From Dysidea avara (Eukaryota; Porifera; Demospongiae; Dictyoceratida; Dysideidae): DNA of 64,000 bases. Numbering within the stretch: the stretch's first letter is position 1; each line of letters starts with the position of its first letter. Shown one piece after another: positions 9,598 through 57,975 of this stretch. The translations under genes and the position numbers were made by a program. The stretch is from positions 10,255,277-10,319,276 of the forward strand of contig NC_089281.1 in assembly GCF_963678975.1 (NCBI RefSeq), in the 5' to 3' direction. Below the pieces are notes generated by a model. That model made no database searches and was not told the origin of the DNA. It worked only from the letters and a program-made list of their open reading frames with translations.

Positions 9598-10108
<511 letters not shown>

Positions 10109-13900: not shown

Positions 13901-16900
13901 CGGTTGGCATTCTGCAGTCCATCCCAAAGAGAAAGTAAGATGGCTTCTCTCCTGTAGATTCATGGGGTGTGTTACGATATGCATACAGTACACCATACAG
14001 ATACTTATCTCACTGATTACCATATGGCAGCATGTTTCCTTAAGCAAGACTTGAGCTCGCTCAACCATCCTATCACACTCCGGATGGTAAGCTGTTGTAT
14101 TCAGCTTCTTAATTCCAAGCATCTTCCACAAATCAGTCATTAAATGTGACAAGAGATTAGTACCTTGATCTGACAATAGGGATTCAGGCACTCCAAATAG
14201 TGGTACTACCTCTTCAACTAGTAGCTTGGCCAGGCACACAGCCTTCTGACAGGGAAAACCAGGGGGAACTTCGTCAGGTAGTCTTGAAACACTACAACAT
14301 GCCGGTTTCCCGACTTGGTAAGTGGAAGATCCATAACATCCACTCCAACAATCTAGAATGGTCATGATACTGGAATAGGATGAAGTGGGGGCTTGTTCAC
14401 ATGACCTACGGCATTAACAATTGCACACTGAGGACAAGAGACACAATGAGTCATGACATCACTATACATGCCCTGCCACCACCAATGAGTTACTAAAGAC
14501 TTGTACAACTTCTCACCTGCGAAGTGACCAGCCATTGGACCACTGTGGTTCTCTTCCAGTATTTGATTCCTTAAGTGACTTGGCACTGCACATCTCTTAC
14601 GGTGGTCATGTTTCGGATCAACAAAATACAGTATACCATCAACAATAGCGAAACATGAGGACTGACAACTTATTCTCTTAGCAACTTTGTTATCATCAGG
14701 AAGGGATCCATCTTTGAATAATATCTCTCAGTTCTCTATCCTTCTGCTGTTCTGTTCCAAAATTACTTCTCTGGTCAACAACACACTGTGGAACATCACT
14801 ATTTAGTAACTGCTGTATGTCCACCTCACTAGAATTCACTGTAGCCACTTGCACTTCCTCCTCTGGTGGAGAGCTGGGTGCCTCACCCTGAGGGTTGCGA
14901 GAAAAAGCATCTGCATTCAAATTCTCTCTGCTGGATCTGTTCTGTAAACTATCTGGATACTCTTCACACCACTTCCATAAACCTTTGTCCACCATCTAGC
15001 ATGCTTGGCACTTGGGTTGGGTGTCTTGAGAACTGCCTTCATTGCCGAGTGATCTGTGTACACTATCACATCGTGTCCATACAGGTATGCATGAAAGTGA
15101 TTCAAGGCCCACACTACAGCCAAAGCCTCTAGTTCTGTTACCGCAAAACGCTTCTCAAGGTCTGATAGAGCTCTACTTGCGTAAACCACTGGGTGAAGGC
15201 GACCATCTGCTTGTGACTGTGACAATACTGCTCCCAACCCTTGCACACATGCATCAGTCTCCAGTCTAAAACTCTCTGTAAAGTTGGGGTAGGCCAACGC
15301 TGGTGATTCAGTCAGACACTTCTTCAGTGTGTCAAAAGCCTCCTGGCAGCTTGTGCTCCATTCAAACACAGCATCCTTACATGTTAATGCGTGAAGTGGT
15401 TCAGCTATCTTAGCAAATCCTATGATAAATCGCCGGTAGTAGGAAACTAGCCCCACAAACTGTCTAATTGCCTTGACTGATGTAGGTACAGGGTAGTCTT
15501 GCACAGCCACTACACGATCACTGTTAGGTTTAATACCTTGAGGAGTAATTGTATGTCCTAAGTACTTTACTGCTCCACACAAAAAGTGGCACTTGGAAGG
15601 TTTGAGTTTTAGCCCAGCCTTTGCAAAACGTTGTAGTACTAGACGTAAATGCTCTAAATGATCTTCTAGTGTCTCTGAATAGATAATAATATCTTACAAG
15701 TAAACAGATACAAAACTGGGTCACTCATCAGGATTCAAGCCCATCAGTATCCTTTGTTTGCTTCAGTCTCTGAAACACAGCCGGGGCGTTCTTTAGTCCA
15801 AATGGCATGACAGAGAACTTGTACAGGCCCTGGTGAGTAACAAATGCTGTCTTCTCCTGTGAGCCTGGATGGACTTGAACCTGCCAGTAACCTGATGCTA
15901 GGTCTAACGTGGAGAAAACTTGGATTTGCCGAGTTGGTCAAGCAAATCATCCACACACGGGAGAGGAAATGTGTCACTTTTCGTAACAGAGTTCAGGTCC
16001 TGGGAGTCTACACAAAATCTTAAGGATCCGTCCTTCTTACGGACCAACACCACTGGACTAGCGCATGGACTGGATGAAGGGTGAATCACTCCTTGGTCCT
16101 GCATTGAACATAACTGACAAGCTATCTCTTGTCTTGCAGCAAAAGGAATCCGTCTGGCTGGCTGTCTCTTGAGTCCAGAACTACCAGTGTCTATCTCCAT
16201 CTGAACCATCACAGTTTCTCCTCTCTCACCATCTTCTATGGCAAAAACATTGTGGTGCTCACACAACAACTCCTGTAACTTACACACTGTACTTCTGTCC
16301 TCCCAAGGCAGCTCCTTACCAATCTATGCAACTGAGGCAATCAGGTCTCGTTTCCTCTTACTAATGTCATCTGAGGTGACTGCCTTGAGGACCATCATTA
16401 ACGTTTCCATCAGCACTTCTAGCCTGCTCTGACTCTCCAGAAGCTGGGGTGGTGGCCTCTTTAGTTACTGCCTCAAACGCCATCCCAACACACTCTCCTT
16501 TCTCCAGCTTACATGTGGCACCAGATGTGTTAGTCAATAATACCTTCGTACAACCATCATCATTAACATGCACTAGAGATTCACTTATCTGTAACTGACC
16601 ATCATACTACTTAGTAAAATCAAGCACTGGTTCAAGCAACAATGAACCCTTCAGATCTTGAGACTCAACTTGTACACTCATTAATGTTTCCTTAGAGGGT
16701 GCTAGCCTGACTGAACTAACTAAACTAACACGAACACTGCGTGCAAAAGGACATGTTGTACTCTGACTTGTAGTCTGTCTCAAGACACTGGGGTCGTATG
16801 CAACAATACCAAGGTGATGACACACTCCCTCAGATAACAACAGATCATCATGAACATCCATCTTCAGATACATTGCTGTATTCATTGTCTTGTCATTGAA

Positions 16901-19340
16901 ATTAATGTCAAGATGTAAACAACCATCCAGCTTAAACTCATGCCTGTCATAAGTATGTGGTACCTTATCTGCCTTCTTCAGTTCCCTCTTCTTCAGTTTA
17001 GCAACTGATGCAACTCTCTTAAACAGTTCTGGTCCCATAATAGTGATGTCAGCACCTGTGTCTACAATGCCTCTTGCTGGAACACCAGCTAACTCCTCAA
17101 GGGCTAGCTGTGACTTGCTACCCTTATCCTGTACTCGGACTAGTGAAATCTCACTCTCCTCTTCAGAGTCTGATAACAAAAACTCACGTGGGTTCACTTG
17201 TGGTGCTGCTCCCGAAGGATGGCTCTTCTCTAGACTGACCATCTTCGTGCTTGGCTTCTCCTTAACCTTCTTATGTGTATATGTAGTGGTGCTCTCACTC
17301 CTACTCCTCTGTTTGCAGTGCCACCGCATGTGACCTGTCTTGCCACAAATGTAGCGTTTGACATTACTCTTGTCAACGTCACCTGACTTCTGGTTCTGGT
17401 GCTCATTCTGTGAGCGTGTACTACCTGTCTTGTTACTAGATGGGATAAACATTTGTCGTGTTGGACGCCGAGGGGGATTAATATTTTGGCAATACTGTTA
17501 CCTCTTACGAAGTTCTAGCAACCGCTTCTCCTCATTACGAGAAGCCATACAAAGTGCTGCATAATTCTGTGCTCCAGACACAGTGGGGGCCTTCATGATC
17601 TCATGTTTTCAGTGCATCCTGCAGTTGATCATGTAGCAGTGCACTGCGAGTCTCTTGTGACATGGAGTCCCTTCCATATGCCACCTTAAAAGTGTGCTCC
17701 AAGTGCCTTATTAAGTCAGCCACAATCTCTTGTTCACCCTGGAATATGTGGCGAAAATCTTGGGCTGCCAGTGCCTTGTTGACTGGTTCCAACTTTCCTC
17801 AGAGTGCCTGGATTGCTCGAAAATAACCTCCCTTCTCCTCATCCAAGAGTAAGTCCCACTCCTGTCGAGCCCTGCCACGAAGGTGCCCTGCTAACTACAT
17901 CAACTTCTCTTCCTCAGTCCAACCGTACCATGTTGTGGCTGTGTGCAGTGACGGGAGCCAATCATCCAGGGTACTAGTCAAGTTGTCTCCAGTGAAGGGA
18001 TCAACAGGTGGGGCTTTGCCCCTTCGCGATCTAGACTCGCTTATACTGGTTGTGCTAGTGTCCAGTATTGATTCAGCACCTGTTGCAGGTGGAGCTCTAG
18101 GTTGCATATCTTGGATCTGCCTTTTCAATCTCTCAATCTCAGCATCATGGCTGAACAATTCATTATCTAACTCTGTTAAATATTGACAGTTGGTACGTCA
18201 CAACCGTTTTATACGCTCCTTCCCTTCGTCCACCTGGGTCTGTAGAGCAGCAACAGTTGCATTGAGGGCCTCTATCTCAGCTCTCGCCCCTTGTAGCTCT
18301 GTCCTCAGCTGTTCAGCTTCATTGCCAGATCCATCTTGGGAACTGCCTTCACTCTCTTGTTCCTCAGGTTGATCCTCACCGTCGTGGTCGACCGGAATGA
18401 CCATAAATTCCTCCCCTTCGTCCAACAATGACATGCCGCTGGTGGACATGAGTACTTGCACATTTGCTGGCTCGCGCCCCAGCTCTCTCAGCTTACCCTC
18501 AATCATTACACGGACCTCAGTAGCAGCCACTTCTGTTGGCACATCAAGCGCTCGAGTCACACACTTTATCTGTTCAGCGGTGAGGCGCTTGGAGTTGAAG
18601 GGTAGTGGAACACGTGGCCAATCGTGCCCACTACCCGACAGTTGGACGTACACGTCCTCGGACATCATGCAGCATTATGGTATACCAGTATACTCTTACT
18701 ACTTATCACACAACTTAATATGTGACTATATAACAGCTGCAATAATGTGCGACTCCACTACCACCACCACTGCACCACGTGTCTCCTCCTAAAAGTCGAC
18801 TTCCAGTAGCGGTGCTGCTCCAATAACTGCCAACATCAAAAGAATCATCAACCTCTTCGTCTGGAAGGTAGCCTCCTGAAGTCTGCATCCCGATATCCTC
18901 GATTGGAAGGGATCTCGGTGGGATCTCCACTGCAAACTTGTTGTCACGAGTCAATTCTAATTAATGACTAAACATACGTGCACACATATTACATTAGTAT
19001 ACAGACAAATACTACATTAGTAATTTACTTAAACTATAAAGTTCTGTCATTGTTACACCTTGCTCCCTTACAAAAAGTTTCAGTACTTATTTAACAGAAG
19101 TATAAGTTTAAAGAATAATCGAATATTCGGTCGCTTTGTTCACAACTATTTGAATAGTAAAAATTGCTATTCATTTCAGCATTAATATAGATGGCCTGAT
19201 CACTAAAAAATTTGGACTCTGGCCCTGGATATGTATCCCCCACTTTTTGACTTATAGTAATGAAACGATGCTAAGTGAGCCTCCCCTGTGCTATATACAG
19301 TGCTAATTGAGGACACACATGCTATTAGTCAAGAAAAGGT

Positions 19341-30900: not shown

Positions 30901-33900
30901 GTTGCTTTCATGTTATTCACTTATTGCGTCCCAAGTCCAAGTAGTCCAGGGAACTAAAGGACATCCCAAGACAGTCCTGGTATTATTCACCTATAGTCCT
31001 GGTGTTATTCACCTACTATGAGTTTCAGTCTTTGCACATGCACTTAACAACGTGGCTATGACTGGAGTACAATCAGTACAAGTAAGTATTTACATTTGCG
31101 AAGATATTTGCAATGATTAGTTCAATACTACCCTTCCATAAGAAAGCACATATACATAGGTAGCTATCTTTTAAGACAGTGTGGTGGTGGGCATGTCATC
31201 ACAACTATCTTGTTGGTGTATTCAAGTACTATGACAGTTTCTGGCACTGCAATTCTTTAACAAATTTGCTTCAAGGCCTACACTACTTGCATAACTTTAC
31301 TGCAATAGTGACAGTTTGAGATGATTGCATTGCTTGAGTGCTTGCCACTAAACAAAAAAATGCATTGCATAATATTTCAAGGGGAATGCAGTGTATTGTC
31401 ATGAATAGCAATCTATTTGCGATAATTGTGAAAATTTCTCTATAAAAAGAAAAAAACATGCTGTATGGTATTTATTCACTCATCAATGTACACAGGGATT
31501 ATTTTTGTGGGAGAAATATTTCAGTTCAATGGGACGAATTATTATCACAGCCCTTGATATCATCAATGATAGGATATTTCCACATCATGCCAAGACCTAT
31601 GAGGTATGCTATACACTTGGAAGACTTAGACATGTTCTTTTTTTTATTAATAGACATGGAACAATAATCCAGCTGATGTGATGTCAGCTAGTAAATTCCA
31701 GTACAACTATCTCAAATTACCGTTACCTGCTCCAGATGTCTCTCAAGGCTTTACAGCAGTTATTCTCACTTATGATCGTGTTGATATGTTATATCAAGTG
31801 ATTAGAGGGATAGCCAAAGCTCCCAGCCTTGCCAAGGTATTGGTGCTGTATGTGTACACATGCGTGCGTGCGTGTGTGCGTGCGTGTGTGCGTGCGTGCG
31901 TGTGTGTGTGTGCGTGTGTGTGTGTGTGTAGAATTAATTCCCTTACCTATTGACCATTGTGATAGATAGTCTAGAGTTAGTAACGAAACGGAGGTTCGAA
32001 GCTATCCGAATGGACAATCTCGACGATAGCGGATCGATTCAACTTACACGTGTTCACTCTTCATGAAGCGCACTAATCAGCCTACAACAAACGTGATACA
32101 TACACACAATGAATTACGTAATCACTACAACTACTACTAATAATAATAACATTGTCAGCTACTAGTTCTCGACATCCTCCAGGGGGCCACATAGTGTTCT
32201 CGTCCACTTTGAACTTGTTGCCTTCCTCGAATTGCTGCTTGACGGATGGGTCGAGTGTGTTTGGAACTACCACTTGCTGCTTCAACTGTGGGATTCTGGG
32301 CAACACTGTCTGATAACTTTTCCTTATGTTGGTAATTTTGCTTCTGAATGGAACTGGATTCTGCTGTACTGACTTCCAGGGGGTATAACTTGGTTATTGG
32401 ACGGTTTTTCCTGCCAGTTGATGTTCTAATATTCGCAGCTCTGATGAGACCATCTTGTCCAGAAATAGTGTCCTCAACTACTGCAAGACGCCAAGTGAGA
32501 CGGGGAGTATCGTCATGCACTAGAACAATAGCTCCTGACTTGATTGTTTGAACATTGGAGCCACTTGTTTGATGAAACTCTCGAAGCCCAGTGAGATATT
32601 CTTGCCTCCATCTAGTCCAAAAGTGTTGCAACAATGCTCCTTGTTTCTTAGCTCTTGTCTGAATATTGGTGTCTCCAAAGTCAGGATCACTGTAGTCGTA
32701 CTCAGTAGTCACATGGTAGGGCACACAAGCAACTTTCCTGCCATACAGTAGGTGGGCAGGAGTGATGGGGTCTGGGTCATTTATGTCTGTGGGGGCAGTA
32801 GTAAGGGGCCGGTTATTAAGAATACCCTCTATTTCAACAATTAAAGTTTGAAGGCTGTTTAGTGTTGTGAATGCTCTCCCCAGGACCTTCTTCAAGACCG
32901 ACTTTGTTAACCCGATTAGCCTCTCCCAGAAACCCCCAAACCAGGGGGCTCACTTGGGAATAAACTTCCATTCTACCCCAGTCCTAGCTAAGGTGTCTGT
33001 AAGTGAGGGTGAGGAGAATAAGGCCTTCAATTCCGCTGCCGCTGAAAGAAAGGTTGAGCCATTGTCTGACAATACAAGGCGTGGTAAGGACCTCCTGCTA
33101 CTGAAGCAACGGAAGGCCTGTAGAAAGCATTCGACCGTGAGATCTGTTACGATCTCAAGGTGTACTGCCCGACTTACAGCGCAGGTGAATAGACAAATGT
33201 ACACCTTGTGTTCTCCTCCAATGCCTCTCACATACAGAGCACCTGAGAAGTCGATCCCAGTGACTTCAAATGGCATGGATTGTTGTACACGGGCCTTCAC
33301 CAGTGGGGGAGGATCCGGTGCAGAGTATGGTTTACCAGCTAATTTCTTGCAGGTCACGCACTTCCTCAGTAAGGATCTTATTCTTTGCCTTGCACATGGC
33401 ACCCAATACATTTGGCGGAGGGATGTCAGTGTCATGCTAACCCCAGCATGGTATTGTTGCTTGTGTATGTGCCAGATGAGAAGGGAGGTAAATGGGTCCT
33501 TTTGTGGTAGAAGAAGAGGAAATTTAGCTGATTCTGCGAGCGGTGCATTATGTATTCTACCACCACAACGGATCAAGCCAGTGTGATCCACATAGAGTCG
33601 GAGCTGCCTCACCAGTGGCAGTCTTGATGCACGATTAGTCGACCGTAGACAGCTTAGTTCCTCTGGGAAGCACCTGTGCTACACATTACCCACCCATCGA
33701 AGATTGGCAATGGATATTTCAGATGGGGTTAGTGATCCTGTGAGCTTAAAGAGCTTTTGCCTGGTGTTATGGGCAAAACGCAGAACATACGCAGTTACGT
33801 CTAGCAGCTTGGTGTAGCTACTGTAAGCTGAAGGATCAACAATGTTGTGCAAGCCAGTGGTAGGTGGCAATATAGCTGTGTTGTGAACCCCAGCAGTTGA

Positions 33901-36900
33901 TAGCGGGTCATCAGCAGTGACAGCTTGTATAATCATGGCTTCAGAAGGATTCCAGGTGGGCCACTTGGCAGGAGATGACAGCCAAGAGGGGCCATTTCGC
34001 CACAACACTGAATCGGCCAGTTGTGATGCTGTCAATCCACGGGTCAAAAGATCCACAGGATTGGAAGCTGTTGGACAATATTGCCATAGTGATGATTTGG
34101 ACTGAATCTCTTTCACCCTATGTGCGATGAAAGGTTTAAGCTTCTTCTTGCTTTTGAGCCAGCACAGAACTATTTGGCTGTCAGACCAGTAGTAAATGGT
34201 GGCACTAAGCTTGAATGAATCCACCACAAAGGGGCCTAGGCGAGCTGCTACAACTGCGGCCGTAAGTTCAAGCCTAGGCAGCGAGTGTTGCTTGATGGGA
34301 GCTACACGAGATTTTGACATTACAAGTGAAGAATAGTTGCCACATTGGATGTAGACAGCAGCTCCATATGCCTTTGGGCTGGCCTCAGCGAAGACATGTA
34401 GGACAGCAGAAGAAAGGTCTGCTGCTTGGAGCATAGGTATGTACTGTCTTGGAATTTTTTGTTGTAAAGCAGTAGAGATATCTGTTGTTATGGTAGCCCA
34501 TCTGATCTGACAGGGTTTAGCCAATTCCGCATCCCAAGATACATTATCTTGCCAAAGTTCTTGAAGTAACAACTTGGCAGTTATTGTTACTGGAGTGGCT
34601 AGACCAAGTGGGTCAAAGATTGAAGCTGTGTACCGCAAGATATCACGCTTCGTCACTGGAGTGCAAGTGGCAAGATCAGATTTGGAGTAGAGATACAATT
34701 CATCAAGCTGAACATTCCAGCATAGGCCAAGGACCTTGACAACCTCTTCAGTCTCAGCTACACTGTGCTGGTGTGCTAGATTCCTGAGCATTGGACTGTT
34801 AGACGCCCAGGTGCGGAGGTTGAACTTCGATAAGTTCATCAATGAACGTGACTCTAAGAAGTATTGAGTGGCCTCTTGTTCAGTGTCACAGCCAGTGACT
34901 ACATTGTCGACATATAGACTGTCAAGGAGATTGGCAGATAGTGGTGTTTGATGCTGTTGTAGGTGAAAGGTGATAGCTGCATTGAGCATAAACGGTGAGC
35001 AGCTAGCTCCAAACAGGACAACCTTAAAGCGATACAGTTGAAATGTACTGTTGGGGTCAAGCGGGTTAGACAACCAGAGAAAGCGTGTATAGTCTCTGTC
35101 AGACTCATCAAGCTGTACATGAAGGAACGCTTTCTCGATGTCAGCAGACAGACCATACATAAACAAACGAAAGCGTAGCAGTATGGCACACAGATGGTTA
35201 AGAAAGGGTGGGCCTACCTGAAGGCAGTCATTGAGGCTAGGGTAGTGGGATGACTGCTTACAGCTGCAGTCATACACTATGCGGACTGGTGTGGTAGCCG
35301 AGTCCTTCCTAACAGGTCGATGGGGGATGCAATGAGATTGTTTGGTGTTGAAATCATTGACTCTCTCAATGAAGCCTTTGGTCTCTTGGTCAGCAATAAT
35401 CTGGCCATACATGCTCAAGAGTTCTGGGGTCTTAGCTAACCTCTTGGCCAAGGATTTGGTACGCTTGGCACATATGGAGAAGTTGGAAGGCAGAGGGGGG
35501 TGATCCTCCTTCCAAGGGAATTTCAGGGACAAGGCTCCATCCGGTTGGCGCTTGATATTAGATTGCATGTAGTCTTTCAAGAAATGGTTATCACTGTCCA
35601 TGGTAGTTGAGGAAATTCCAGTTGACTCTGTTTTCCAGAAGGTGTCAAGGCTAAGGTCATCTACAGCTGTAAAGTTTACTTGAATCAAGTTAGCAGCTGC
35701 TGATGGCTGCAGTAGAGGGCCAGACAATAAATAGCCTAGATGGGACTTGACAGCTGTAGGGCCATTGCCACGTATGACTTGGTCTTGGACAAATGTCCAA
35801 TAGTAATCGGCACCTACAAGAACATTAATCTCGAAGTTGTCATCCTCTGTGACAGGGTGAGCTAACTGCAAGCCCTTCAAGTAGGGTAACTTGGTAAGCT
35901 CCATCCGCATGGAGTTCTGTAGTGGAGCCGCCAGCTGAGGTACAACCAAAACTGAGATAGGAATGGGGCTCTGACCAATTGTGTGTATTGAGATTGTAGC
36001 TACTTGAAGGAGTCTGGCAGAAGATGCACGGTTTCCAAAGGATGACAAAGATACCCGTTCTCTGTTTGTTGTCTTCAGGCAAAGTCTATCTGCGAGGTCC
36101 TGAGAGGTGAAGGAGCGCTGTGCGCCTTCATCAAGGAGAATGTTTCCTTTCGTGCTATACGGACCTGCAGAGACTGTGGCGATAGCAGTCTTCAGCAGGC
36201 AGGGACTACGAATATACTCAAGGGGGGTTTGGGGCCTAGAGACAGTGGTAAGTGCACTTGTACTAGCAGCAGGGGGGGCCTGCGGAGGAGGCACTGACTG
36301 AATGTGGTTTGCTACAGGGGCAGGGGGTAGCTGAGGGGTGCTAGGGGGTGGTGGCTGTGGATTTCTGGTTGTAGCAATGAGAGAATGACACAAGCTTGTG
36401 TGGTGTTTCTGGTTGCACTGTTTGCAACGTCTGCGGGAGGTGCACTGTGACACTCTATGGTGTGCCAGGCAATTAAAGCACAGACCTGCTCCCTTTACAA
36501 TAGACGTGCATTGCTGGTGGTCTGTAACAACAGTGCACTGGTTGGCTGTGTGCGAGCCCTTGCAGTAGGTGCAAACTGGTTCCCTCTTCTCTCGTTGGCC
36601 TGCAGATTTAGCTGCTCCGGTGTGGAGGGATGCAGCTGTGGAGTGGAACTCTTTGTTAGAGTCATTAGAGTAATGTCCTATTTCAAGGACGCGGATTTCC
36701 TTAAGGATGCAAGCCATGACATCCCTGATGGTCCACTCACCACCACTATTGTCCCTAGCAAACTGCTTTCTAAGGTCAGCAGGAAGCTTTCCTAAGACCA
36801 TGCGGGTCAGCATAGTACTGTAGGTGTCTGGAGACTTTCCCAGAGACATCAAAGCTCTCATGTGGCTTTCCAGCTTGTCATGAAAATTCTGTAGGCTAGT

Positions 36901-39900
36901 CAGGCTATTAACAGGTTTTGGAAGGTGCATTAGGGCATTCATATGGGCATCAACCAACTTATAAGGCTGCCCAAACCTTTCTTTGAGCAAAGCCACAGAA
37001 TGTTCATAGTTCAGGTCAGTGAGCGGGAGGAGGTTATCGATTACATTGTATGCATCCCCTTGCAATTGTGCCCTTAAGTAATGGAATTTCTGGACCCCTG
37101 TTAAACCCTCATCGTTGTGGATAGCCGCCACAAAGGAATCCCAGAAAGTCTGGAATTGAAGTGGTTCCCCGCTAAATGTTGGGAGGGTAAGCTTGGGTAA
37201 GCGGCTTACAAACTGCCCCACAGACTGACCCACATTGCGTGCAACATGTGTGTGCGGCAATGAGTTACTCACCACTCCAGCAGCTGCTGTGTGCCCTGTT
37301 GATGAATAGTCCTGCTCATGATCAGCATTCTCTGGTTGAGTGTTATTGTCCTCTGGCTGTTGATCAGTACTGTTGTCAGAGATAGGACGGTTCTGAGAAC
37401 TTCCTGAATGGGCCTTAGTCTTCGCTAGCAACACAGGAGAAATGGTGAACTTCCGCAAACTGGCCATGCGTTCAGTTAGGTTGAAGTGGTACATCTCAGT
37501 ATCCCCAACTTCGTCTTCCAGTTCTTGTTCTGTTGTTAGTGCTGCTGCGATCGTCTGGTCCAGTTCTTCCAGTTGGCGTTTCTTCGACGAGACTTGAGTG
37601 AGGACGAGTTCTATCCCTTCCCTGTCTTCGGACGAAATCGATTCCCGGGTGTCGTCGGTGTAAGTTTCAGTGATCGCCTGAGCTTTGGTGAGAAGCTTGG
37701 TCACGAAGGAGCGCCCGCCACGTCTGGAGGCACGGGCGTGTTGAAGGGTATCCATTCGAAATCCCTGGTCACAGCACCAAAATGTGATAGATAGTCTAGA
37801 GTTAGTAACGAAACGGAGGTTCGAAGCTATCCGAATGGACAATCTCGACAATAGCGGATCGATTCAACTTACACGTGTTCACTCTTCATGAAGCGCACTA
37901 ATCAGCCTACAACAAACGTGATACATACACACAATGAATTACGTAATCACTACAACTACTACTAATAATAATAACATTGTCAGCTACTAGTTCTCGACAA
38001 CCATTTTATTTTGTTACAGATTCTGATAATATGGAATAACCTGGACAAGTCACCTCCTCCATGTCAGTGCTATTGATATGCGTATGTTATGTTGATTGTT
38101 GTCTCCTGTAGCTACCGAATGGCCTATTATTGGCAAGCCAGTGGAATTGATCCAGAGCAAGGAAAATAAACTAAGCAATAGGTTAGTTAGTTGTGACCAA
38201 ATACCATATATATTGTATGTATGATAAGCAGTAGGTGTTTAAGATATCTCACAAATGATTAGCTTCAGGTATCTGTTACTATGATTTAGATGGGTGAGCT
38301 CAAGTCCAAATGTTTACTTCCAATAAAGTTTTTTCTCTATAGCAACATTGCAAGTCACAGAAGTGAGAGTGTTTTATCCCATCTCTTATAGCAGGATTTT
38401 TTTGAGGGGGGGATTTTCATGGATTGCCACCATCCAAAATTTTGAGGGGGAGAAAGATTTTCTCTTCTTCAGGGTCCATTATGCATTTAAAAGACCCTGA
38501 AACAAACAATACAATACAAACAATACTATATAATTGAGCTGCAAATTTCAAAGGGGATGTTTTTTTGTGAAAAATGTTTCCTGGAAAAGAATGCTGCTAT
38601 ACGAAATTTTGTCTATACAGTTGACAAAGTAGTTTACAAGTACTAGCAAATTTTAAGTTTGATTAGGGATCAAAGAAATAGGGGATCACCTACACCTGAA
38701 GATACACTAGTGGACACTTAATCCCTAATTCAGTTTATCATACAGTACAGTAGTACTGTATAGTAGGGATCTCACTATTGTAAAGAGCAACCGCACAAAT
38801 TTGTATGGAATTTTAAAAAATTTCTATTTAACTGAATTTCCTACTAACTGCCTTCAGCCAAGCATAACTTGGATGAAGAGTTACATGTAGGGATTCAGTG
38901 ATGGTCATGAGTTCAGTTATGAGCCTAAAGTCATATAAAATTAAGTACCAAGTATATTTAATTTGCAAAAACAGAAAAAAAAATCCTAGCAGGCTATAAA
39001 GCTAAAAGTATGCCCATGGGTTGGTGCAGCGAGGAGCTCATAAGCTGGTGCTGCAGATGCAAGCTTTCATAATTGTGGAGGATTCTTATAGTGTTACAAT
39101 ATACATAACATGTGGTGATTATTCTATTAGAGTATTTTCTGGACTGCTCTATTAGAGTACTGTATTTACTACCGTACCTTTAATAGTAGCTGCACTTGAG
39201 TTGTACCACAATCAATTTTGAAAATAAGGGCTTCAACGTTGTTTTTGAGTATCGAGTGGTGGTCAAATTTGAATATTTGCCGCAATGATTTTATGAATGA
39301 AGGTAATGAATGCCGCAGAGTAAATACAGTATCTCAATCTTTAGATTTTTTGGGGGAGGGAGAGGGAGGGGACATGCCCCCCTCTAGATCTGCCACTACA
39401 CAATACTGTAATTACTTATGTCTGTTACTGCCTATAGTGCCATACACTTGTATCTGTTTTGTTACCTTAACCATTTAGCTCTTTTTTGCATGCTTTTTTT
39501 TATTTGAATATCATTTTTACTTGAATATCACTTAATTTACAAATACTTGTTTTTCACACAGGTTTTATCCTTACCCTCAAATAACAACTGATTGTGTCCT
39601 GTCTATTGATGATGACATTATCATGTTGACCCCTGATGAACTGGAGTTTGGCTATACTGTAAGAACACACATTACACAATACTACAGATAGCACATTATC
39701 AGGGGTCTTTTGTAATATACTTATTTGCATAGTTTGAAGCAGTTAGTTATATTTATATGCATACATGTTTAGTACAATGGTTTGTGTAACCACCTCATAA
39801 CGTTCTGTATGTGTACAACAGGTGTGGACGGAGTACCCTGATCATTTGGTTGGGTTTCCTGGCAGAGTCCACTTTTGGTCACACACAGAGAACACTTGGA

Positions 39901-45900: not shown

Positions 45901-47829
45901 TTCAGCAACTATACACATTATTGGGGACCACCTATAGTATGTTCACGTTGAGCTGAACCCTGAAAAACAGTTAAAATTAAAAGTGGATTTTATCTCAACA
46001 GAGTTAACATTTCAGCCAACCAGATGATTATTGGTAACAACAAAGGTGTTAACAACAGACACATACAGTTTGACTCCATCAAAAGTTCGGGAAAACGCTG
46101 TAATAGACACTGTATTTATATGGCTTCTCCATAGGAAATGTATTGTGAAAATTTTTAATGGCCATAAATATGATGTCAAACATTTGAACAAAAAGATTTT
46201 GAAACATTTTTAGCGGGTCAAGCAGTACTACAAATGAGCCAAATTTCAAAATGGTGTGTAATTGCACCCATGAGTTATTAAATGTTTTTGAGGATTCAGC
46301 TCAACATGAACATACTATAGTACAGGCTAACTAGCCTTTTGTGGAACCCTTCTTTGGAAAAATTGATAATAAATAAAAATAAATAAATAATTCACAAATC
46401 CTCTTGATAGTCCCTCACAAGTGATGTTCTTCAGACCTCAGAATGGTTAGTAAGTTCTCATGGTTCTTCATTGGTCTGATTTTTAGTTCACAGTTTTCAC
46501 TAATTGGCATGGGAACAACTCATGTTTCCATAACAACATTTGAATTCCATGTCGATTAATGAGAAGTTAAGAATGCATAACAATGCATTAAGAAAAATCA
46601 AACCCCTAATCATGAAAAATGATTGATAGTGTACATGTGGGGTTTACAGTATCCCGTAACCTTAAATAATATTTTTTTAAACTCCATAACAACTTGTTGA
46701 AAGCTTTTCAGGTCGATCTGAAGGCTTGTTTGGGCTTAGTTTACCTTACCAATACTGTCGTCTAGAAAAATTGAGGCTGGTTTTTGGGTGATGTTTTTTC
46801 ATGGGACACGCCCACACCTTTTGTGGTCCCTACTATACAGTACTATCGTACTGTATGATTAGTGTTATAGTGAAATCTGTATAGAACCTTGGGACCAACC
46901 AAAAGTATCCTGATTATCTAAATGTCCTAAATTTCCAAGTCATTAGTTAGAATGGCCAAAAAGGTTTCTACACTATTTAAATACCAAAGGATGATGTGGG
47001 TGAGGATACCCATAAGCTTAACTACTGAAGCTACATGCTGAGGTAATTATCTGAGTAGCCAAGCTCTCATTGTCTGAAAGGCTCTAAAAAGCATAGAAAC
47101 CAATTTCCGGCCCGTTCTAAGTGTTTTAGAGGTAGGGAAAGAGACAAACTGTGCATGCTAGCATTGGGATTTATCCTTAAGTCAAGTTGATTGTGTCAGT
47201 GCCACTGCACTGGCATGACATTCATAACTTTACGTGACAATAGTACCAGTATCAAGTAGTTATTATGTCGGGCAAGAATGACACTTGTCTTGTCCAGAAA
47301 GTAAGTTTTTAAGAGATCTCCACCCTTTCAACAATGTCACTAGTACATATAGAGTACATGGTTGTACTACCTCCATTATCCGGCCATCGATTATCCATTA
47401 GAGTAATTGAACAGGGCTAGGGCTATATATATATAGATGAATGGACTTCTATTATCCAAAATTTTTGATTATCTGAACACCCTTGGGGCCCAATGAGTTC
47501 GGATAATAGAGGGGCCATTGTAGGTTGGTGTATTTTTAACTTTTGAATACTTGTATAAAGCTTCTACTATACTCACTTTTACTAATGTACTTTACTGTTA
47601 CATGTAGGTCACACCTAGAAAGAAGTTTAAATGTGCGGATTGTTCACCAGTTGGTTCTTTATGGTCAGATCCTAACCACTTCTTGGAGAGACATGAATGT
47701 CTAAAAGTATTCACTAATATCTATGGTAACATGCCACTGAAGTCTGTGCAGTTCAGAGCAGACCCAGTTTTGTACAAAGATGATGTTTCTACAGTACCAA
47801 AGAAATTTTCAGATATGGGCAGCATGTGA
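27114..47829 (+). CDS. EXT2: Exostosin-2 heparan sulfate co-polymerase
   Basis: Twelve exons join in phase: 27114-27562, 27621-27833, 28529-28793, 30460-30624, 31496-31603, 31654-31836, 38020-38062, 38112-38181, 39562-39658, 39822-39965, 40019-40147 and 47608-47829. They give 695 residues (human 718). An N-terminal membrane anchor (residues about 10-26) shows a Golgi type II protein. The GT47 exostosin domain follows, with [27 protein letters not shown] and [11 protein letters not shown]. The C-terminal GT64 domain starts near [12 protein letters not shown] and holds the Asp515-Asp516-Asp517 metal-binding motif, the block [18 protein letters not shown] and, at the end, [10 protein letters not shown]. 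With EXT1 it forms the polymerase that alternates GlcA and GlcNAc on heparan sulfate. All key blocks are present and no stop interrupts the model. Intron 6 contains a BEL/Pao element and intron 11 is 7.5 kb of repeats. Assignment as EXT2 rather than EXT1 rests on the exon-by-exon similarity recalled for EXT2. Confidence 0.95.
27850..28392 (+). repeat. EXT2: (TG)n followed by about 120 TGAG units, EXT2 intron 2
   Basis: A TG tract (27850-27907) passes directly into an uninterrupted TGAG/GTGA tetranucleotide array to 28392, about 485 bp. The junction suggests that the tetranucleotide grew out of the TG tract. The array occupies most of intron 2, which lies between exons ending at 27833 and starting at 28529. 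The long Thr-His-Ser-Leu frame on the minus strand is an artefact of the array. Confidence 0.97.
28912..29565. mobile_element. hAT-like MITE with GATACC arrays, EXT2 intron 3
   Basis: The left end GAGATGGACCGATACC and the right end GGTATCGGTCCACCTTT form inverted repeats. Flanks TATTATTA (28904-28911) and AATTATTA (29566-29573) agree at 7 of 8 bases, like a hAT target duplication. Near both ends CCGATA/GATACC units are tandemly repeated. There is no transposase frame. A related fragment lies near 100-200. Confidence 0.65.
31860..31931 (+). repeat. GTGC/GTGT tract in EXT2 intron 6
   Basis: This is a microsatellite of mixed GTGC and GTGT units, directly after EXT2 exon 6 (donor at 31837). It lies about 25 bp left of the BEL/Pao insertion. 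Confidence 0.9.
31958..32174 (-). repeat. BEL/Pao 3' LTR
   Basis: This LTR is identical to 37783-37999 except for G versus A in the CTCGACGATAG segment (about 32025). A G-rich purine tract on the minus strand (just right of 32174) fits a polypurine tract. Confidence 0.93.
32155..37755 (-). pseudogene. BEL/Pao gag-pol, nearly intact, two nonsense codons
   Basis: The frame probably starts at the ATG at 37753-37755, because the longer upstream part runs into the LTR. It stays open for about 1,360 codons. In order it shows: a gag-like region with [15 protein letters not shown]; cysteine-rich knuckles ([39 protein letters not shown]); a protease with [12 protein letters not shown] with [14 protein letters not shown] and [10 protein letters not shown]; and RNase H with [18 protein letters not shown] at about 33676-33678 ends this frame. 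The integrase resumes in the same frame with its HHCC finger ([19 protein letters not shown]) and core ([17 protein letters not shown]). It is interrupted by TGA at about 32947-32949 and finishes with [10 protein letters not shown] and a C-terminal domain. With only two point stops in 5.6 kb the copy was recently functional. Confidence 0.9.
37783..37999 (-). repeat. BEL/Pao 5' LTR
   Basis: This is the 5' LTR relative to the element, bordered by ACCAT at 38000-38004. EXT2 exon 7 begins only 20 bp further right (38020), so the insertion landed just before that acceptor. Confidence 0.93.
41690..42012. repeat. Degenerate minisatellite, period near 35-40 bp
   Basis: Units of the form TGAACTGTGACCAACACAG followed by an ACACCTC or CAACCCA ending recur about eight times with substitutions and indels. 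It lies in EXT2 intron 11 and has no coding signature. Confidence 0.7.
42060..42500 (-). mobile_element. Decayed retroelement with RNase H-like/YR-associated remnant
   Basis: Minus-strand fragments such as [28 protein letters not shown] and [13 protein letters not shown] appear in different frames. From memory they resemble the C-terminal region of DIRS-like or related reverse-transcriptase proteins (pattern GTLVVP.W.SAPFWP). Multiple stops and shifts mark an old relic. Family assignment is tentative. Confidence 0.35.
42530..43240 (-). pseudogene. Exon-like fragments of an unrecognised gene
   Basis: On the minus strand there are peptide-like blocks with splice-like borders. One reads [12 protein letters not shown] before a GTAAG donor (about 43184). 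One reads [20 protein letters not shown] after a TTCTACAG acceptor (about 43133). Another reads [14 protein letters not shown] (about 42740). A last one, [18 protein letters not shown], precedes a stop near 42536. At least one frame shift separates the third and fourth blocks. The sequence looks like a transposed or degraded intron-containing gene copy inside EXT2 intron 11. The family was not recognised, and a transposable-element origin is equally possible. Confidence 0.3.
43684..44250. mobile_element. MITE with long, nearly identical inverted repeats
   Basis: Arms of about 98 bp (43684-43781 and 44153-44250), starting CAAGAGTTAATAATAAGAGA, are complementary with only about three mismatches. 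The same 7 bp, ATATGAT, flank both ends (43677-43683 and 44251-44257). The 370-bp centre carries short open frames on both strands but no recognised protein. High arm identity suggests recent mobility. The superfamily is uncertain (hAT- or P-like by duplication length). Confidence 0.85.
45060..45483 (+). repeat. Dispersed repeat with GTCA-type tail, copy 2
   Basis: The right end (45391-45478) matches 1571-1658 and includes six AGTC units. The left part carries an 87-codon open frame (45105-45368) with no recognised domain. Because the family is dispersed, the frame is more likely part of an element than a host gene. The element lies inside EXT2 intron 11. Confidence 0.45.
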
Positions 47830-50503: not shown

Positions 50504-52842
50504 TCACTGACTGTTGCTTGGTGGTGTAAAATTATCTTCCATTATAGATTCCATTGTGTAGTCCAATATCTTGCCTTCTATTAGTCCTTCTCCTTGATTG
50601 CCATGAGTTATTGCATGCCAGCATGATTTCTGTGGCTTCAGTGCATCGTTACTAGTGTTCTTTGTAACTGAAACTGGATTGTTTCTTGGTCGAGTTAACA
50701 GTTTATTTTCTGGATCAATCTTCACTCCTTCAGCCATAAATTGCCCTGTAGAATAGAGTTGCAATGTACACAAGACGTGTGGAGAACAATGATTTAAACT
50801 AACCCATTAATCCATGTATATTTGAGGTGGCCTCATAATGCATGTTCCAGTCAACATCTATTTTATTGTGAAGTAAGTGTACAGTGAAGCTAGCCTTTGG
50901 TTTATCATATACAACGTTGACTGTGGATTGTGCATCTTTCTGTTTCTTAGCACTGCTCATTGCTAACTTAAAACTAACTGACTGATTCTTTTTAAATACA
51001 ATTTGGTTAATCATGGATGCCTTGAAAGTTCCTTGTCCAAGTATGTTAACCTCTTGAGTGATGGAGTCAAATAGGACTGCTTGTGATTTGTTCACATTTC
51101 GAGGGATTACAGCCAACTTTCCAATCCACGTTGACTCAGTGGTATCTTCTTCACTGTCAATGAACATGGCGTTGATGAAGTAGTCCTCATTACTAATCAG
51201 ATTAAATGCCAGTCCAGCATACCCTTGTATAGAATAACATAGTGTCTGGTTGGATAACAGCGGTACTACAAAATGAGGATCACCGACTACCTTAGGCTGG
51301 TCACATGTTACTAAATCTAAACAAAAACACAGCATTATAGTAACGTGTGATATGACTATCAAAAATTATATGTAGCAATTACACACTAAGAGATGAAACC
51401 TTGTACAAACGGCATTCACCATACTATAGTAAAACCAGCTGCAGAATTGAATATTTGCACCTGTTGATTAATTGTATGGACTCTGCATGTGTCATGAAAT
51501 AAAACACTTATTGACAGTGCTTTAAAGGGCTTCATTGTCTCTAAACATGGCTTTATATGTTAGTCAAATATCCCTTGATGCATGCAGGTGTGCTAAAGGC
51601 AGGCTAGCTGAAGGTTACATAACAAGCTTGTATACCAGACTCACTTGGTGAATTAATGATATTAACAGTAACTATATTGGCTAGTCCAGTGGTGACCTCA
51701 TCTTTCAGCGATTCAGGTATAGTAAAGTTGACGGTGAACATCTCAGTTGTTTCATTATCGCAATCACTATACAAGGGAATGACAACTGAAGTTTCCTCTT
51801 CACCAATGTGTATCATTGTTGTAATTGAAGCAGCGTCATAGTCGATGTATCCTATAAATTTGTAAAATACACAATATAGGCAATTTTTATATATGAAAAT
51901 AATTACATGTGTTTGCTTAGAAGACAAACTCTTCAAGTAAGAGTATTTTGGTGTTTGCCTTACTTAAAGCAGCTGCAGATGTTGGAGATGATGGTTGATC
52001 TGTCATCATCAATGTAATTGGAATATCGATATTTGCTGGCATTGTAGTGAAGAGGGTCACTTCTACTTTACCATCATCTTCAGTACCAGTGAATTTCGCA
52101 GAAGAGAAATCAACAACAGGTACTATGAAAAACAATTATACATACCTCAACATGTACAGTCACATAGAAGACATACCATGATCTGTAATCTCTACAATGT
52201 GTTTGTCATAGTAGCCATTGTCATTATCATTGACAATACAACAGTCAGTATATACAAATGACAACTCCAAGCTGGATACATCAGATGGTATGTGGTCCAA
52301 ACGTACTGATCCTCTTGCTACTGTATTGCCAGTCACTAACGCAAGCTCAATATCTGGATGGTCAAGTAATCTGTTACGTTGTGCTGTAGTAATGTAAAAG
52401 TATTCATTTCAATACGTATATTAGCTATATATATCACAGTAAGACACATACAGCTGCTACTGTGTATATACACACTGACTTTTCTTCCAAGTCACTCGAG
52501 CTACGAGACTCAATGCTTCAATCACTGCTTCGCTGATGTGCACATTGAAGTAGTAGTGTGAGCCAGATCTCACCACCACACCATTAGTTGTACTGAAGCC
52601 ATACTTTACTGTATGGGAAACTGTGTAAAAAACAATACTGTAATGAATCCATACAAATAAAATCCACTAGATCTGGATCTGTGACTGTATATAGAACAAT
52701 ATAATGTATGCACCATATCTATGCATGTTATATTATCACAATATCTGTATACTTTCATTTCTATGGTATATTTACCTGGTAATGGTTGGCTGATGGTGAC
52801 TGTTAGCAGTAGAATAAAGCAACATAGTTTATCACAGGCCAT
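50504..52842 (-). CDS. Secreted Calx-beta plus ITIH C-terminal domain protein
   Basis: Seven exons join in phase: 52776-52842, 52480-52620, 52177-52383, 51964-52122, 51636-51851, 50804-51310 and 50504-50745. All introns are phase 1. The product is 512 residues. Residues about 1-18 form a signal peptide (LCCFILLLTVTIS). Residues about 23-138 are an unrecognised domain with two adjacent cysteines. Residues about 140-260 look like a Calx-beta domain (VDFSSAKFTGTEDDGKVEVTL, then a DYDAASITTMIHIGEEETSVVIPL and DNETTEMFTVNF pair). From residue about 264 the sequence matches the ITIH C-terminal domain: GDPHF at 273-277, LCYSIQGYAG, HGLMGQFMAEG and CWHAITHGNQGEGLIEG. Vertebrate ITIH heavy chains have VIT and vWA before this domain, and neither is seen here. 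A secreted matrix-type role is likely. Function is unknown. Confidence 0.85.
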
Positions 52843-54502
52843 GACTATCACTGGATCACACAAAACACTACAACCACCATCTCTTGTAGACAATACTGAG
52901 AGTTTGTATTGGCTATACTTGTATTAATACATATGAGGTTGTGCACTTGAATGTTTGTATTGGTGTTGGTAGTCTTCAATCAAGCATGCACACACAGGCT
53001 AACTGCCTTAGTTGGTTTCCAAGATAAACATCCCGATGTACATACAAGCTTTGAGCCTCCATAACTTTTTCTGTTTCTTTTAAATATGTGTGGTGTAGCT
53101 CAGATCAATACTTCGTTGTTTTGAGTACATGACAATGTATATGTGTACTATTAATCCTACATTTTTCCTGGTGTTAATTATTACTGGCTAAATAAATAAG
53201 AACCATACCTTATGTGAGTTATGAATGGGTGCATCCTGCTTAAATTGTCTGCATTATTTAGTATTCTTGTTTGATAGAAAAAAAAAGGCTAGTATGTTAA
53301 GGAAACAGGAGAGAATTAGTTTTCAATAGAATCCAGGCTTAAATACTCATACAGTGTTAAGCTATATGAGATGAACAGTCAATCTTATACTAAGCTATGG
53401 TTTTTATTTGTAGAATATTTTAAAGCTGTGAATTCTGTGATATAGTGGAACCCATCTGCATGGTCCCAAATTTCTAATAAGCAGGTGACTACATTTTATA
53501 CAGGTGCATGGATTACTGTATAAATTTCTTATTAAAGGATGGCCTGTTAAGAGGCTGGCCTTTCTAGTACATGGCTGCTAAGTTTAGCTATCAAATGATT
53601 CTACAGAAAAGATGCATGATCAATCAATCAATTAATAATAATATTTTCCTACCTGATTATTCACCACCTTCAATCGAAAGTTTAATCTTAAACAAGTAAC
53701 TTGATTAGGTAGTTTTGAAATGAAATATTATATGTGAGCATAGGTAGTTATGAAATGAAACATTGTATATGAGCATGTTTAATCTTATTATAATCAACAG
53801 TATCTATTTTTCACAAGTGTTGAAATTCTAAGGGAAGTGTTGAAATTCTAAGGGAAGTGTTGCTGCTGTTATGTATGGTCTTATTTCATAACTACCAATG
53901 TAAGTTAGCCTTAGAACCGACTAAAAAAAACTTCCAGTTTCATATTCTTCTCACATCTTCCTACAACACACCTGCACAAGTATAATTATGTTGAAACATA
54001 TATTTATTAGAGTAGCAATATTAATTTATTTATCCATGGATGCATTGCAGATATTTGTGTACGGAAGGTTGAAGTATTTTTCCATCCATGCACTATGATA
54101 GGGATGAGTGTACCTCTCTTTATATGCTCAGTAGAGGATAAAATAAACTTCAGGTGTAACCAATTGTATTATAAGCATATGGTAGCGGAAAAATGGAAAG
54201 AGAAAAAAATGAAGGGCTAAGCTATTCTAAGAATGAAAGAAAGATTTTCAAAGTTATGCTTTAGGAGTATAATAGCTCTACAGAACAATATAATATGCAT
54301 ACATTATATTGTTCTATAATTTATACAGTCAAATTTTAAGACCCATCAACAACTCTAGTCACTAAAGCTATTTGGCACAATAATGAGATAACAGTCCACC
54401 AGAGGTCAAGAAGATATCCATACTCAGTTCCTTACAGTCTAGCAGAGCTTGCCAGGACACCACTGTTTCTCTACTGGTGTTTGGGTAAGAATTTAGCAAG
54501 AT

Positions 54503-54562
<60 letters not shown>

Positions 54563-56909
54563 ATATGCGTACTCTTTCAACTACTAAGTGACAAAGCTAG
54601 CTACTTGCAACATCTCCACACCAAATACAGTGGTAATTATAAAGTATCTATCCTTGTTTCATTTTCTATAAAGTATCTATATCCTTCCTGTGTTCAACTA
54701 TACACATCAAGTTCAAGCACACCTGCACATATTTCAACTGACAGGGACTAATACTACACTATGTATTCATAATCAAGTAGTTCCTGAATAGTTGTATGTT
54801 GTGTGGTTTTGATTAACTTGAGGTGCTGACTTCTTGGAATAGAAAAAGAAACATTGCACACACAAGCCATGTACATTACAGCACAACCACGTGCCGATAG
54901 TTGTGTATGCATGTGATATAGTCATGAAAGGCATATTAGGAATCTGCATAGTTAATAATATTGTTGGTGAACACCTGTATTCTAAAGATGAACACAGTAA
55001 TGTTATGTGCATCATAGGTAGCAAATTGTTAAAGTGATAGTCATAGTTGTATGCTTAGCTACCTGCAGCTGCATGTAGTTAAATACCATGCACTGTAGCA
55101 AGATGGTATCAATGCAACATAACATTAATTGTCCTACAATTATGTATAGTTAATTGAAGCTATCAGTTAAGAATTGAATTGATTAGTTATACAATACCAC
55201 AATGTCATGTTAGACATTGTCATCAGGACCTCAAACACTTTATTATGCATTTTTTATAATCTACGTGAAAATGACTCAGACAAGTTTTGGGTAACTGGTA
55301 GAAAGTTCTTCAAACATTTTCATTTGCTGTAAAGTATCACATGGCACTAAGGCCACGTAGTAAGAGATTGGTGATTTTCAATACTTCATGGGTTGATTGA
55401 AAGTACTTTTAATGAAATGAATTCTGATGAAGGCAATATGTTTCACAGAAACGAATGTACACCTATACCTGGGTGTAGGAAGTAAAAAGAAATGTACCTG
55501 GAGAGCTTTCATTAAGTTGCCAAAAGTGGTAACTTTTGTTTGCAAGAAGTAGCCAAAATTGGCAATTTTTAGGCTGTCCAATAATTTCCAAAATTGGCCT
55601 TGTAACATACCTGGACAAACAAGGCCTTGCATGATCAGTTACATGTAGTACTATTACCCTTTATGTAGAATATTCTAATTCAATTGATTTCTTAGATAAT
55701 TGAACTGATTTGCAGCAGCATTCTAAAAATGAATCTACCTACGTGATTGCCAAACATACTAGAATGCTATAACAGTACATTACTTATAATCCTACCAAGA
55801 GTTTATAATGGTGTAGGCATTATAAATTCTTGATCCTACAAGTGTAATTGTGTAGCTTGCAAGAAGATGCTACTACATATAGCTACTACTACAAAGCTCA
55901 AAGCTTACACAAATGCCAAATGATAATTACAAAATACACAGTCAGTCCATCTCCTGTTTGATTATGGCAATGTTTAGGTGGATGTTCATTTCATGTTTAT
56001 GGCATGAAATATTTCCCATGTATCTAACTGAATTGTGGAAACATTGTCAAACATATATCCACTTGTAGTATCATTTACATACATTATCCCAGAAACTAGT
56101 TCTTATATGGCACATGTTTATTATTGATCTATGCCATATGAACTTACAGAATGTAGCCAATGTACACAGTATAATTGGGATACTATAACATTGTGTGACA
56201 TAATAGGCTGAAGGAGAAAATGATACTTACACTTTCATTACTTTGTTTGCACAATTTTTGGATAATGTGTGGGTGAAGCATGTAGATGATACTGCAAGTG
56301 GGTATGTTTGACAGTGTTTAGTCATAATTCAGTTAGATATGTGGGAAAAGGGAGTATGCTGGACCCATATAGGGGTCAGCCACTTGGTCTATACTGTGTC
56401 CATACATACATATATAGCTAAGACATCTGAATGGATTAGCTACTAACACATATGTCCATTGAAATTTGTACTAATGTACACACAGAAGCTATAGCTAGTA
56501 GACACACAGCACATACCATAATATATAGGAACTAATTTAGTCTATGACACTGCAAACTGCCAATCCTCAATAGCAAAAGTTTGCTGACATTTGCAAACAA
56601 CAATAGCCCCACAAATGTACGTGGCCTGCCAACAAGGCAACACATAAAAGTTACAGTCAACAAATAATATTGACATTATAATTAATTACTAGTGTCCCAA
56701 GTATTTGAAATTAAGTCTGGAATAATAGTGGTAGCATAACCAGTGAAGCTGGTAAAGGAGTGGATTGAATTCTGTTGACATAATATTGATACTACCTGAA
56801 ACCTTTTAAAAGATTCCTTACAACCACCTTAAAACACAAGATATTTCCCTACAGAATCATTTACTCTAGTTACCAGTACTGATAGTAGCTACAGCCTGTC
56901 ACTAGTAAA
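52843..56909. other. Divergent intergenic region between two ITIH-C genes
   Basis: About 4 kb of AT-rich sequence separates the two divergently transcribed genes. It contains a duplicated TGTTGAAATTCTAAGGGAAG unit near 53818-53860, a (TG)n tract at about 54507-54562 and dispersed repeat relics. No exon was recognised. Shared regulatory sites are possible but none stands out. Confidence 0.5.
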
Positions 56910-57975
56910 ATGAAATCTCTTGCAGTGTGGATGTTACTTACTTTTCTTTATCAAGGTAAGGGATGTATATATTGTAGAACATTTAAGTCATATTAACTGC
57001 ATTTAGCTTATTATCTAGTAAATTTTAACACTATATGTTTTGTGCTGTGTAGCAAACGGTATGCCTGGATCAGGAGATGAAGATAACAATCGTAAGTTGC
57101 ACTGATAGCTATAATTAATTTGCAATTAGAATTGTAAATATACACAACCAACAAAATTTTGTTATTTTCTTATACAGCTGGTGTATCAGGAGATCCGCAT
57201 TTTACAATTCCGTTGATGGGAAATGAAACTCTTTGTTATTCAATTCAAGGATATGCTGGACTAACTTTTAACCTAATATCTAACCCACACCTTACCGTCA
57301 ATGCCCTATTTATTGACAGTGTTAATGATTCCACTGAGGCAACATGGATTGGAAAGCTTGCTGTCATACCACAGAATATGCAAAAGGCACAAGCAATCAT
57401 ATTTGACTCTGTCAAACAAGAAGTAGTGCTACCCAACCAGGGTAAGCTAAAAGCTTCAGTTATCAGACAAATAACAATACAGGCTAGTGGACACATCAAC
57501 ATCAAGTTCACAAAAGGACTAGTCCCTAAACAGGGCCCCATAGCCAACCTCATCAAAGTATCACATGAACAGCTAAAGGCAAAGTTTGATGTTACATTCC
57601 ACCCTGACCATCTTGATGTTGACTGGAAAATCCAAGATCAGTTGATTCCACATTCTCATGGCTTAATGGGTAAGATAAAATGGCCTATGCAACATATAAG
57701 ACTTATTATTATTACCTTCTTTATCAGGTCAATTTATGGCTAATGGAGTTACTGTTGATAGAGTCAAACAGATTTTGATACGACCCGATCTTCCACCTGT
57801 TCCAGTACAACTCGGTGAAGTGTGGAGCTACAACCCTGTGATCAACAGCACTTCCCCTTGCTGGCATGCTAAGAACTATGGACATCAAGGAGAGGGACTA
57901 ATTGAAGGAAATATTTTTGACTACATAGTCACCAGTGTATTACAAAAGAACTTCGCTTTTGTAAAACATAAATAA
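56910..57975 (+). CDS. Secreted protein consisting of an ITIH C-terminal domain
   Basis: Four exons join in phase: 56910-56955, 57053-57091, 57178-57669 and 57728-57975. All introns are phase 1. The product is 274 residues. A signal peptide (MKSLAVWMLLTFLYQG) is followed by a 39-nt exon encoding an acidic linker with GSGDED. The ITIH C-terminal domain then fills the rest: GDPHF at residues 33-37, LCYSIQGYAGLTFNLIS, SHGLMGQFMANG and CWHAKNYGHQGEGLIEG. The last two introns cut at the same positions as in the paralogue at 50504-52842, so the two share ancestry. In vertebrate ITIH the Asp of DPH becomes the ester link to chondroitin sulfate after cleavage. Here almost nothing precedes that site except the acidic linker. 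Function is unknown, and an extracellular location is expected. Confidence 0.88.

Follow-up and report, generated by a model that had tools for sequence, protein, structure and literature searches.

Inter-alpha-inhibitor (ITIH) heavy chains, proteins that carry GDPH in some von Willebrand (VWD) domains, and the sponge aggregation factors, which carry Calx-beta, VWD and 'Wreath' domains, are the described systems closest to the locus considered here. The canonical heavy chain is a secreted protein with a VIT and a vWA domain ahead of a C-terminal ITIH-C domain, and to our knowledge heavy-chain transfer is known only for the inter-alpha-inhibitor heavy chains. According to PMC7170535, the pro-domains of human HC1 and HC2 have 239 and 244 residues and are removed in the process that leaves the C termini of the two chains ester-linked to GalNAc of chondroitin sulfate. 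The GDPH motif is also found in VWD-domain proteins such as FCGBP, MUC2 and MUC5AC. In VWD domains it is the site of autocatalytic cleavage, cleavage stabilised an FCGBP VWD fragment, and in some of these domains strand 1 stays bound by a disulfide afterwards; in ITIH3, ITIH5 and ITIH6 the motif lies between strands 1 and 2 of a predicted sandwich of VWD topology and may be cut (all from PMC10880436).

The stretch of DNA analysed here (the window) is 64,000 nucleotides long and comes from the demosponge Dysidea avara. On its minus strand lies a gene, here called gene A (50504..52842), with seven exons (52842-52776, 52620-52480, 52383-52177, 52122-51964, 51851-51645, 51316-50804 and 50745-50504) that encode a signal peptide, an unassigned domain, a Calx-beta domain and an ITIH-C domain. 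All junctions are GT-AG and all six introns are in phase 1. Exon 1 (52776..52842) holds the start codon and the signal peptide, which was judged by eye from its hydrophobic core. Exons 2-3 (52177..52620; 141 + 207 nt) encode the unassigned domain of 116 residues, exons 4-5 (51645..52122; 159 + 207 nt) the Calx-beta domain at about residues 137-258, and exons 6-7 (50504..51316) the ITIH-C domain, assigned from Pfam together with a paralogue. The GDPH motif (51273..51284, minus strand) occupies residues 272-275, with 238 residues after its Asp. A preliminary description of this DNA had proposed the same complete seven-exon model and the same order of parts with an intact GDPH; the gene model and Pfam bear out that order, and the proposed length of 512 residues has to be corrected to 511, as the reading frame is 1536 nt long including the stop. 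Exons 2-5 contain no in-frame stop in 238 codons, while the other two sense frames contain 20 and 26 and shuffled sequences (n=2000) have a mean of 15.2 and a minimum of 4, a comparison that flatters the model since the exon ends were picked to preserve the frame.

The preliminary description had also named the middle region as Calx-beta, and the comparisons support this identification. Pfam matches residues 137-258 at E 3.3e-4 (21.1 bits), and in a second scan at E 2.4e-4 (21.5 bits) with nearly the whole profile covered, both significant yet under the curated cut-off of 27. The module also resembles the two clear Calx-beta domains of another locus of the same genome (L039) beyond what shuffling gives, with 7 and 5 of 1000 shuffles reaching the score, and a weaker module at locus L035 (2 of 1000 shuffles, 4 of 1000 in another run). 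A genome search for Calx-beta had 1575 first-look candidates, of which 150 were scored, and returned at least 151 matches. By eye, those listed are mostly single stretches of about 204 nt that cover profile positions 52-119, the second half of a two-exon module, and exons 4-5 of gene A fit this two-exon pattern.

The domain encoded by exons 2-3, for which Pfam has no match up to E 10, has an exon layout that resembles the two-exon Calx-beta module. Its 207-nt second exon, together with a pair of adjacent cysteines also seen in L039, prompted the idea of a decayed second Calx-beta domain. Comparisons leave this idea unsupported: the score is reached by 223 of 500 shuffles against domain 2 of gene A, by 617 of 1000 (600 of 1000 in a further run) against the L035 module, and by 117 and 68 of 1000 against the two L039 modules, and hmmsearch gives -1.4 bits.

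For the ITIH-C domain of gene A, the direct Pfam match to ITI_HC_C (residues 317-474, E 0.079, 13 bits, under the cut-off of 27) is worthless alone, because reversed copies of both gene A domains, in which neither Calx-beta nor ITI_HC_C was matched, still gave best unrelated matches at E 0.11-0.13. What secures the domain is the ITI_HC_C match of a second gene in the window, the similarity between the two genes, and tblastn matches that connect gene A with loci above the cut-off. This second gene, gene B (56910..57972, plus strand), has four exons (56910-56955, 57053-57091, 57178-57669 and 57728-57972) and encodes 274 residues: a signal peptide, again judged by eye, the product of a 39-nt exon, and ITIH-C. 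Its GDPH motif (57189..57200, plus strand) occupies residues 33-36, with 240 residues after the Asp. The two genes are divergently oriented, their start codons separated by 4067 bases (4.07 kb), and their products are 47% identical over 243 residues (E 2e-79). The genes have in common a phase-1 intron before ITIH-C and a 58-nt intron within HGLMG|QF. In gene B, the Pfam match to ITI_HC_C reaches 20.9 bits (E 3e-4), short of the cut-off of 27, and tblastn from either gene reaches loci scoring over that cut-off; in both genes the assignment thus comes through homology, their own scores lying under the cut-off. In a tree of ITIH-C domains with 12 rows and long branches, the ITIH-C of gene A and gene B group together with 100/99 support and the canonical heavy chain of the same genome falls elsewhere; apart from this pair and some near-copies, little in the tree is resolved. 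The preliminary description is right about the domain order of gene A and incomplete as an account of the locus, as it omitted both gene B, with ITIH-C alone 4 kb away, and the genome-wide family to which the two genes belong.

Genes A and B are like ITIH heavy chains in the homology of their ITIH-C domains, in the DPHF motif, in the roughly 240 residues after the scissile Asp and in secretion. They differ in lacking VIT and vWA, in place of which gene A has Calx-beta and the unassigned domain. The absence of VIT and vWA from gene A, stated in the preliminary description, is confirmed by Pfam, which matches neither in the 511-residue model. Upstream, on the minus strand of 52843-56909, 47 of the 48 open stretches of at least 25 aa were compared with Pfam at E values up to 5 and none matched, which speaks against hidden VIT or vWA exons; one His/Thr repeat stretch was left out, two others were shortened, and short exons could go undetected. 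The suspicion may arise that gene A is a fragment or a mis-model, either a heavy-chain gene stripped of its VIT and vWA exons or a dying copy, given that its Calx-beta and ITI_HC_C scores lie under the Pfam cut-offs and that the family includes damaged copies (L018, L043). We consider this highly improbable. The gene has a signal-peptide exon, an open frame, clean junctions and phase-1 introns common to gene B; over 236 codons, A and B differ at 92, 63 and 136 first, second and third positions; no trace of VIT or vWA was found upstream in the stretches scanned; and the tree places its ITIH-C with gene B, apart from the canonical heavy chain.

A tblastn search of the flanks, 20 kb before the window and about 59 kb after it, found no further members of the family. 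Within the window, a glycosyltransferase-64 (EXTL-like) gene has its last exon at 47608-47823 (plus strand; E 2.3e-11). This gene is of a type involved in glycosaminoglycan synthesis and ends about 2.7 kb from gene A; its earlier exons may be the exostosin-like open frames seen by eye between 27102 and 31950. Long open frames on the minus strand at 13180-18960 and 32158-37863 look by eye like LTR-retrotransposon polyproteins (Ty3/gypsy-like and BEL/Pao-like), and a trinucleotide run at about 9600-9950 has more than 100 codons free of stops in each of three readings, poly-Gln, poly-Ala and poly-Ser.

The family itself becomes visible when the 551-Mb assembly that holds the window (at G000:C10:10255277-10319276) is searched. 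With the Pfam profile of the domain (PF06668), 15 exon matches were found, all over the cut-off, and genes A and B are not among them. With protein B as the query, 164 matches were reported (210 first-look candidates, 141 scored), and at least 87 places, A and B included, match from query residue 34 or earlier, that is, from the motif onward; this is a hand count of places among the matches listed, some with internal stops, and not of proven genes. Besides A and B, 27 loci were read: all 15 found with PF06668 (L010-L024) and 12 picked from the protein-B matches for contig spread and long open frames (L033-L044). When the ITIH-C exons of L033, L036, L037, L038 and L039 and the L035 stretch were scanned singly, no ITI_HC_C match was found up to E 1; L033 and L035-L039 were recognised through their similarity to B, and L039 is incomplete in the stretch fetched. 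Searches of separate collections of genome contigs and viral contigs gave no relatives, with the exception of one match in Shewanella gelidii (L001) that lies, by eye, inside a methyltransferase-like open frame and was rejected as chance.

What precedes ITIH-C varies from locus to locus, with about nine kinds of N-terminal neighbour, or none; outside the window, the joins between neighbour and ITIH-C are predicted from strand, distance and phase. One locus would be a canonical heavy chain: in L020, a VIT (1.7e-7) and a vWA domain (1.3e-18) precede ITIH-C on one strand. Most of the vWA frame of L020 can be aligned with L022 and L023, and a short part of it with L021 within the stretch fetched; the canonical gene, with copies, is present in the same genome as gene A. 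A stronger vWA match (3.6e-36) precedes ITIH-C in L034 (G000:C8:26361300-26365800), where an Asp/Lys-rich tract of about 450 residues with DDK-type repeats lies downstream of the vWA and shares one open frame with the GDPH domain. In L037 the neighbour is NIDO (1.4e-32), in L038 IgGFc_binding (5.5e-43), and in L024 (G000:C1:3575312-3584740) a series of VWD (1.3e-30), C8 (2.2e-19) and TIL (4e-12). The VWD of L024 has its own GDPH and is followed on one strand by C8, TIL and an ITIH-C with GMDPH, possibly giving two Asp-Pro cleavage sites. Reeler domains (1.2e-6 and 7.2e-6) precede ITIH-C in L014 and L016, the two members of their cluster that were included in the Reeler scan (L015, L017, L018 and L019 lay outside it), with a putative join that spans about 2.5 kb and no exon shown between. 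EGF domains (3e-13 and 4.3e-11) were matched in L040 and L041, in each case with a Cys-rich exon seen by eye, and small Cys-rich repeats without a Pfam name, again by eye, are the neighbours in L010-L013 and L042. In L013 one Cys-rich exon stops 56 nt short of the ITIH-C exon and is in phase 1 at both ends, the phase having been a condition of the search. A small Cys-rich module with a pattern like CC..GG.SF....G.C adjoins ITIH-C in L040, L041, L042 and L010-L013, and where it was scanned (L010, L013 and L040) it matched no named Pfam family. In L033, finally, a short Thr/Ala-rich lead is all that comes before ITIH-C in the open frame. No neighbour was assigned to L036, L043 or L044.

Calx-beta too is found more than once in this position. 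L039 has two such domains before ITIH-C (2.2e-7 and 6.9e-12, both over the cut-off, joined by eye). In L035 the match is weaker: at 19.9 bits (E 8e-4) it falls below the cut-off, and it covers the first half of the profile only. The arrangement in gene A, put forward in the preliminary description as unfamiliar and perhaps undescribed, is therefore real and not a one-off, and it appears to be one case of a broader shuffling of ITIH-C. In the literature searched, which covered few subscription papers, no description was found of an ITIH-C/Calx-beta fusion or of such an ITIH-C family; since most subscription papers and the domain-architecture databases lay outside the search, this absence is weak evidence.

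A known architecture that has to be considered is the sponge aggregation factor. If gene A belonged to that family, its ITIH-C would be the Wreath or VWD part and the arrangement would already be known. The demosponge aggregation factors contain a Calx-beta domain (PMC10815962), Calx-beta is very abundant in this genome, and it precedes ITIH-C in gene A, in L039 and, weakly, in L035. Gene A and the aggregation factors are alike in being secreted and in joining Calx-beta to a GDPH-type domain. Against this, Pfam VWD has no match to the ITIH-C of A or B up to E 10, and ITIH-C in this genome also follows many domains other than Calx-beta, unlike in the aggregation factors; membership in that family is quite unlikely in our view.

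The Asp of the motif is retained, as Asp-Pro-His-Phe, in 27 of the 29 genes read, the exceptions being L018, which has His and a stop, and L043, which has Glu and has also lost the cysteine of LCY. Gly stands before the Asp in 12 genes (A, B and L033-L042), while in 15 of the 27 its place is taken by Gln, Lys, Ser or Met, so the spelling 'GDPH' is no rule of the family in this genome. In an alignment of nine rows, with pairwise identity down to 19%, DPHF, the LCY cysteine, HG..GQF and a later cysteine are invariant. The rows are A, B and seven loci; L011 (incomplete), the near-copies L015, L017 and L019, the unjoined L018 and L021-L023, and L033-L044 are not among them. In 25 of the 27 genes (all except L033 and L041) there is an AG, at most 35 nt upstream of the Asp, that could serve as a phase-1 acceptor, a count that has no chance control and includes several loci that are copies of one another. 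If these AGs are real acceptors, the shuffling boundary would lie almost at the motif, as expected if everything that precedes it is exchangeable.

Taken as a whole, the position of ITIH-C behind many different secreted proteins suggests a reusable part, more than the tail of a heavy chain. The reading that we prefer, at a probability of roughly 0.6 and on the grounds of sequence comparison, is that ITIH-C is a shuffled, VWD-like C-terminal module that cuts itself at Asp-Pro. Gene A would then encode a secreted extracellular protein assembled through phase-1 exon shuffling, with two two-exon modules, one of them recognisable as Calx-beta, placed ahead of a self-contained ITIH-C. By analogy with the published statement on human proteins, ITIH-C would be a VWD-like beta-sandwich; of three PDB sequence searches one gave no match and the best of the two others, at E 1.1 and 1.8, were taken as chance. 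The Asp-Pro bond after Asp273 is probably cut by ITIH-C itself, a likely event in view of the published autocatalysis at GDPH in VWD domains and the removal of the pro-domain from HC1 and HC2, and the cut would leave Asp as the last residue of the N-terminal piece, with a C-terminal domain of 238 residues as the other product. The pieces might then stay associated, come apart, or be coupled to a matrix polymer. Conservation of the motif would, however, equally suit a role that is purely structural.

One possibility is that the cut merely hardens the domain. As in VWD domains, the first strand would stay in place, either by packing or through Cys265, and the domain would gain resistance to proteases. 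NIDO, VWD-C8-TIL and IgGFc_binding are the usual companions of VWD domains, and these are found ahead of ITIH-C in L037, L024 and L038, respectively; a difference is that ITIH-C is not followed by C8 or TIL. In gene A an additional cysteine, Cys265, precedes Asp273 by eight residues; in L010-L013 (CGQDPHF) the spacing from cysteine to Asp is three. The stabilising effect itself has been measured for a VWD domain of FCGBP (PMC10880436). Gene B fits less well, having no cysteine before its motif, so that its first strand could be held only without a disulfide. We give this possibility somewhat less than even odds.

The alternative suggested by the heavy chains, and raised in the preliminary description, is that the activated Asp273 is esterified to glycosaminoglycan, so that the Calx-beta piece becomes covalently anchored to matrix polysaccharide. 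Motif and prodomain length are the same as in human HC1 and HC2, which are ester-linked to chondroitin sulfate (PMC7170535), and ITIH-C is common to many different N-terminal neighbours. In gene A, four cysteines lie between the signal peptide and the cleavage point (117, 118, 222 and 265) and two in the C-terminal piece (287 and 473), an arrangement in which disulfides could form within each piece and leave the two free to separate. On the other hand, conservation of the motif cannot tell hydrolysis from transfer, and in gene B and L033 there is almost nothing before the motif, which means that transfer of a cargo cannot be the purpose of every member. On balance we see such a transfer in gene A as unlikely. 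A wider version is rather unlikely in turn: ITIH-C would be an old, freely shuffled self-cleaving module that activates the C terminus preceding it and attaches cargo to matrix polymers, present here in dozens of genes whose cargo includes Calx-beta, vWA, nidogen-like, EGF and Reeler domains; the heavy chains would be one surviving use of it.

Under the preferred reading of a shuffled self-cutting module, the sponge genome would use ITIH-C as a general C-terminal unit, with the VIT-vWA heavy chains as one user among many. The same C-terminal domain behind about nine N-terminal kinds, or none, would make the domain, and not the heavy chain, the unit of evolution.
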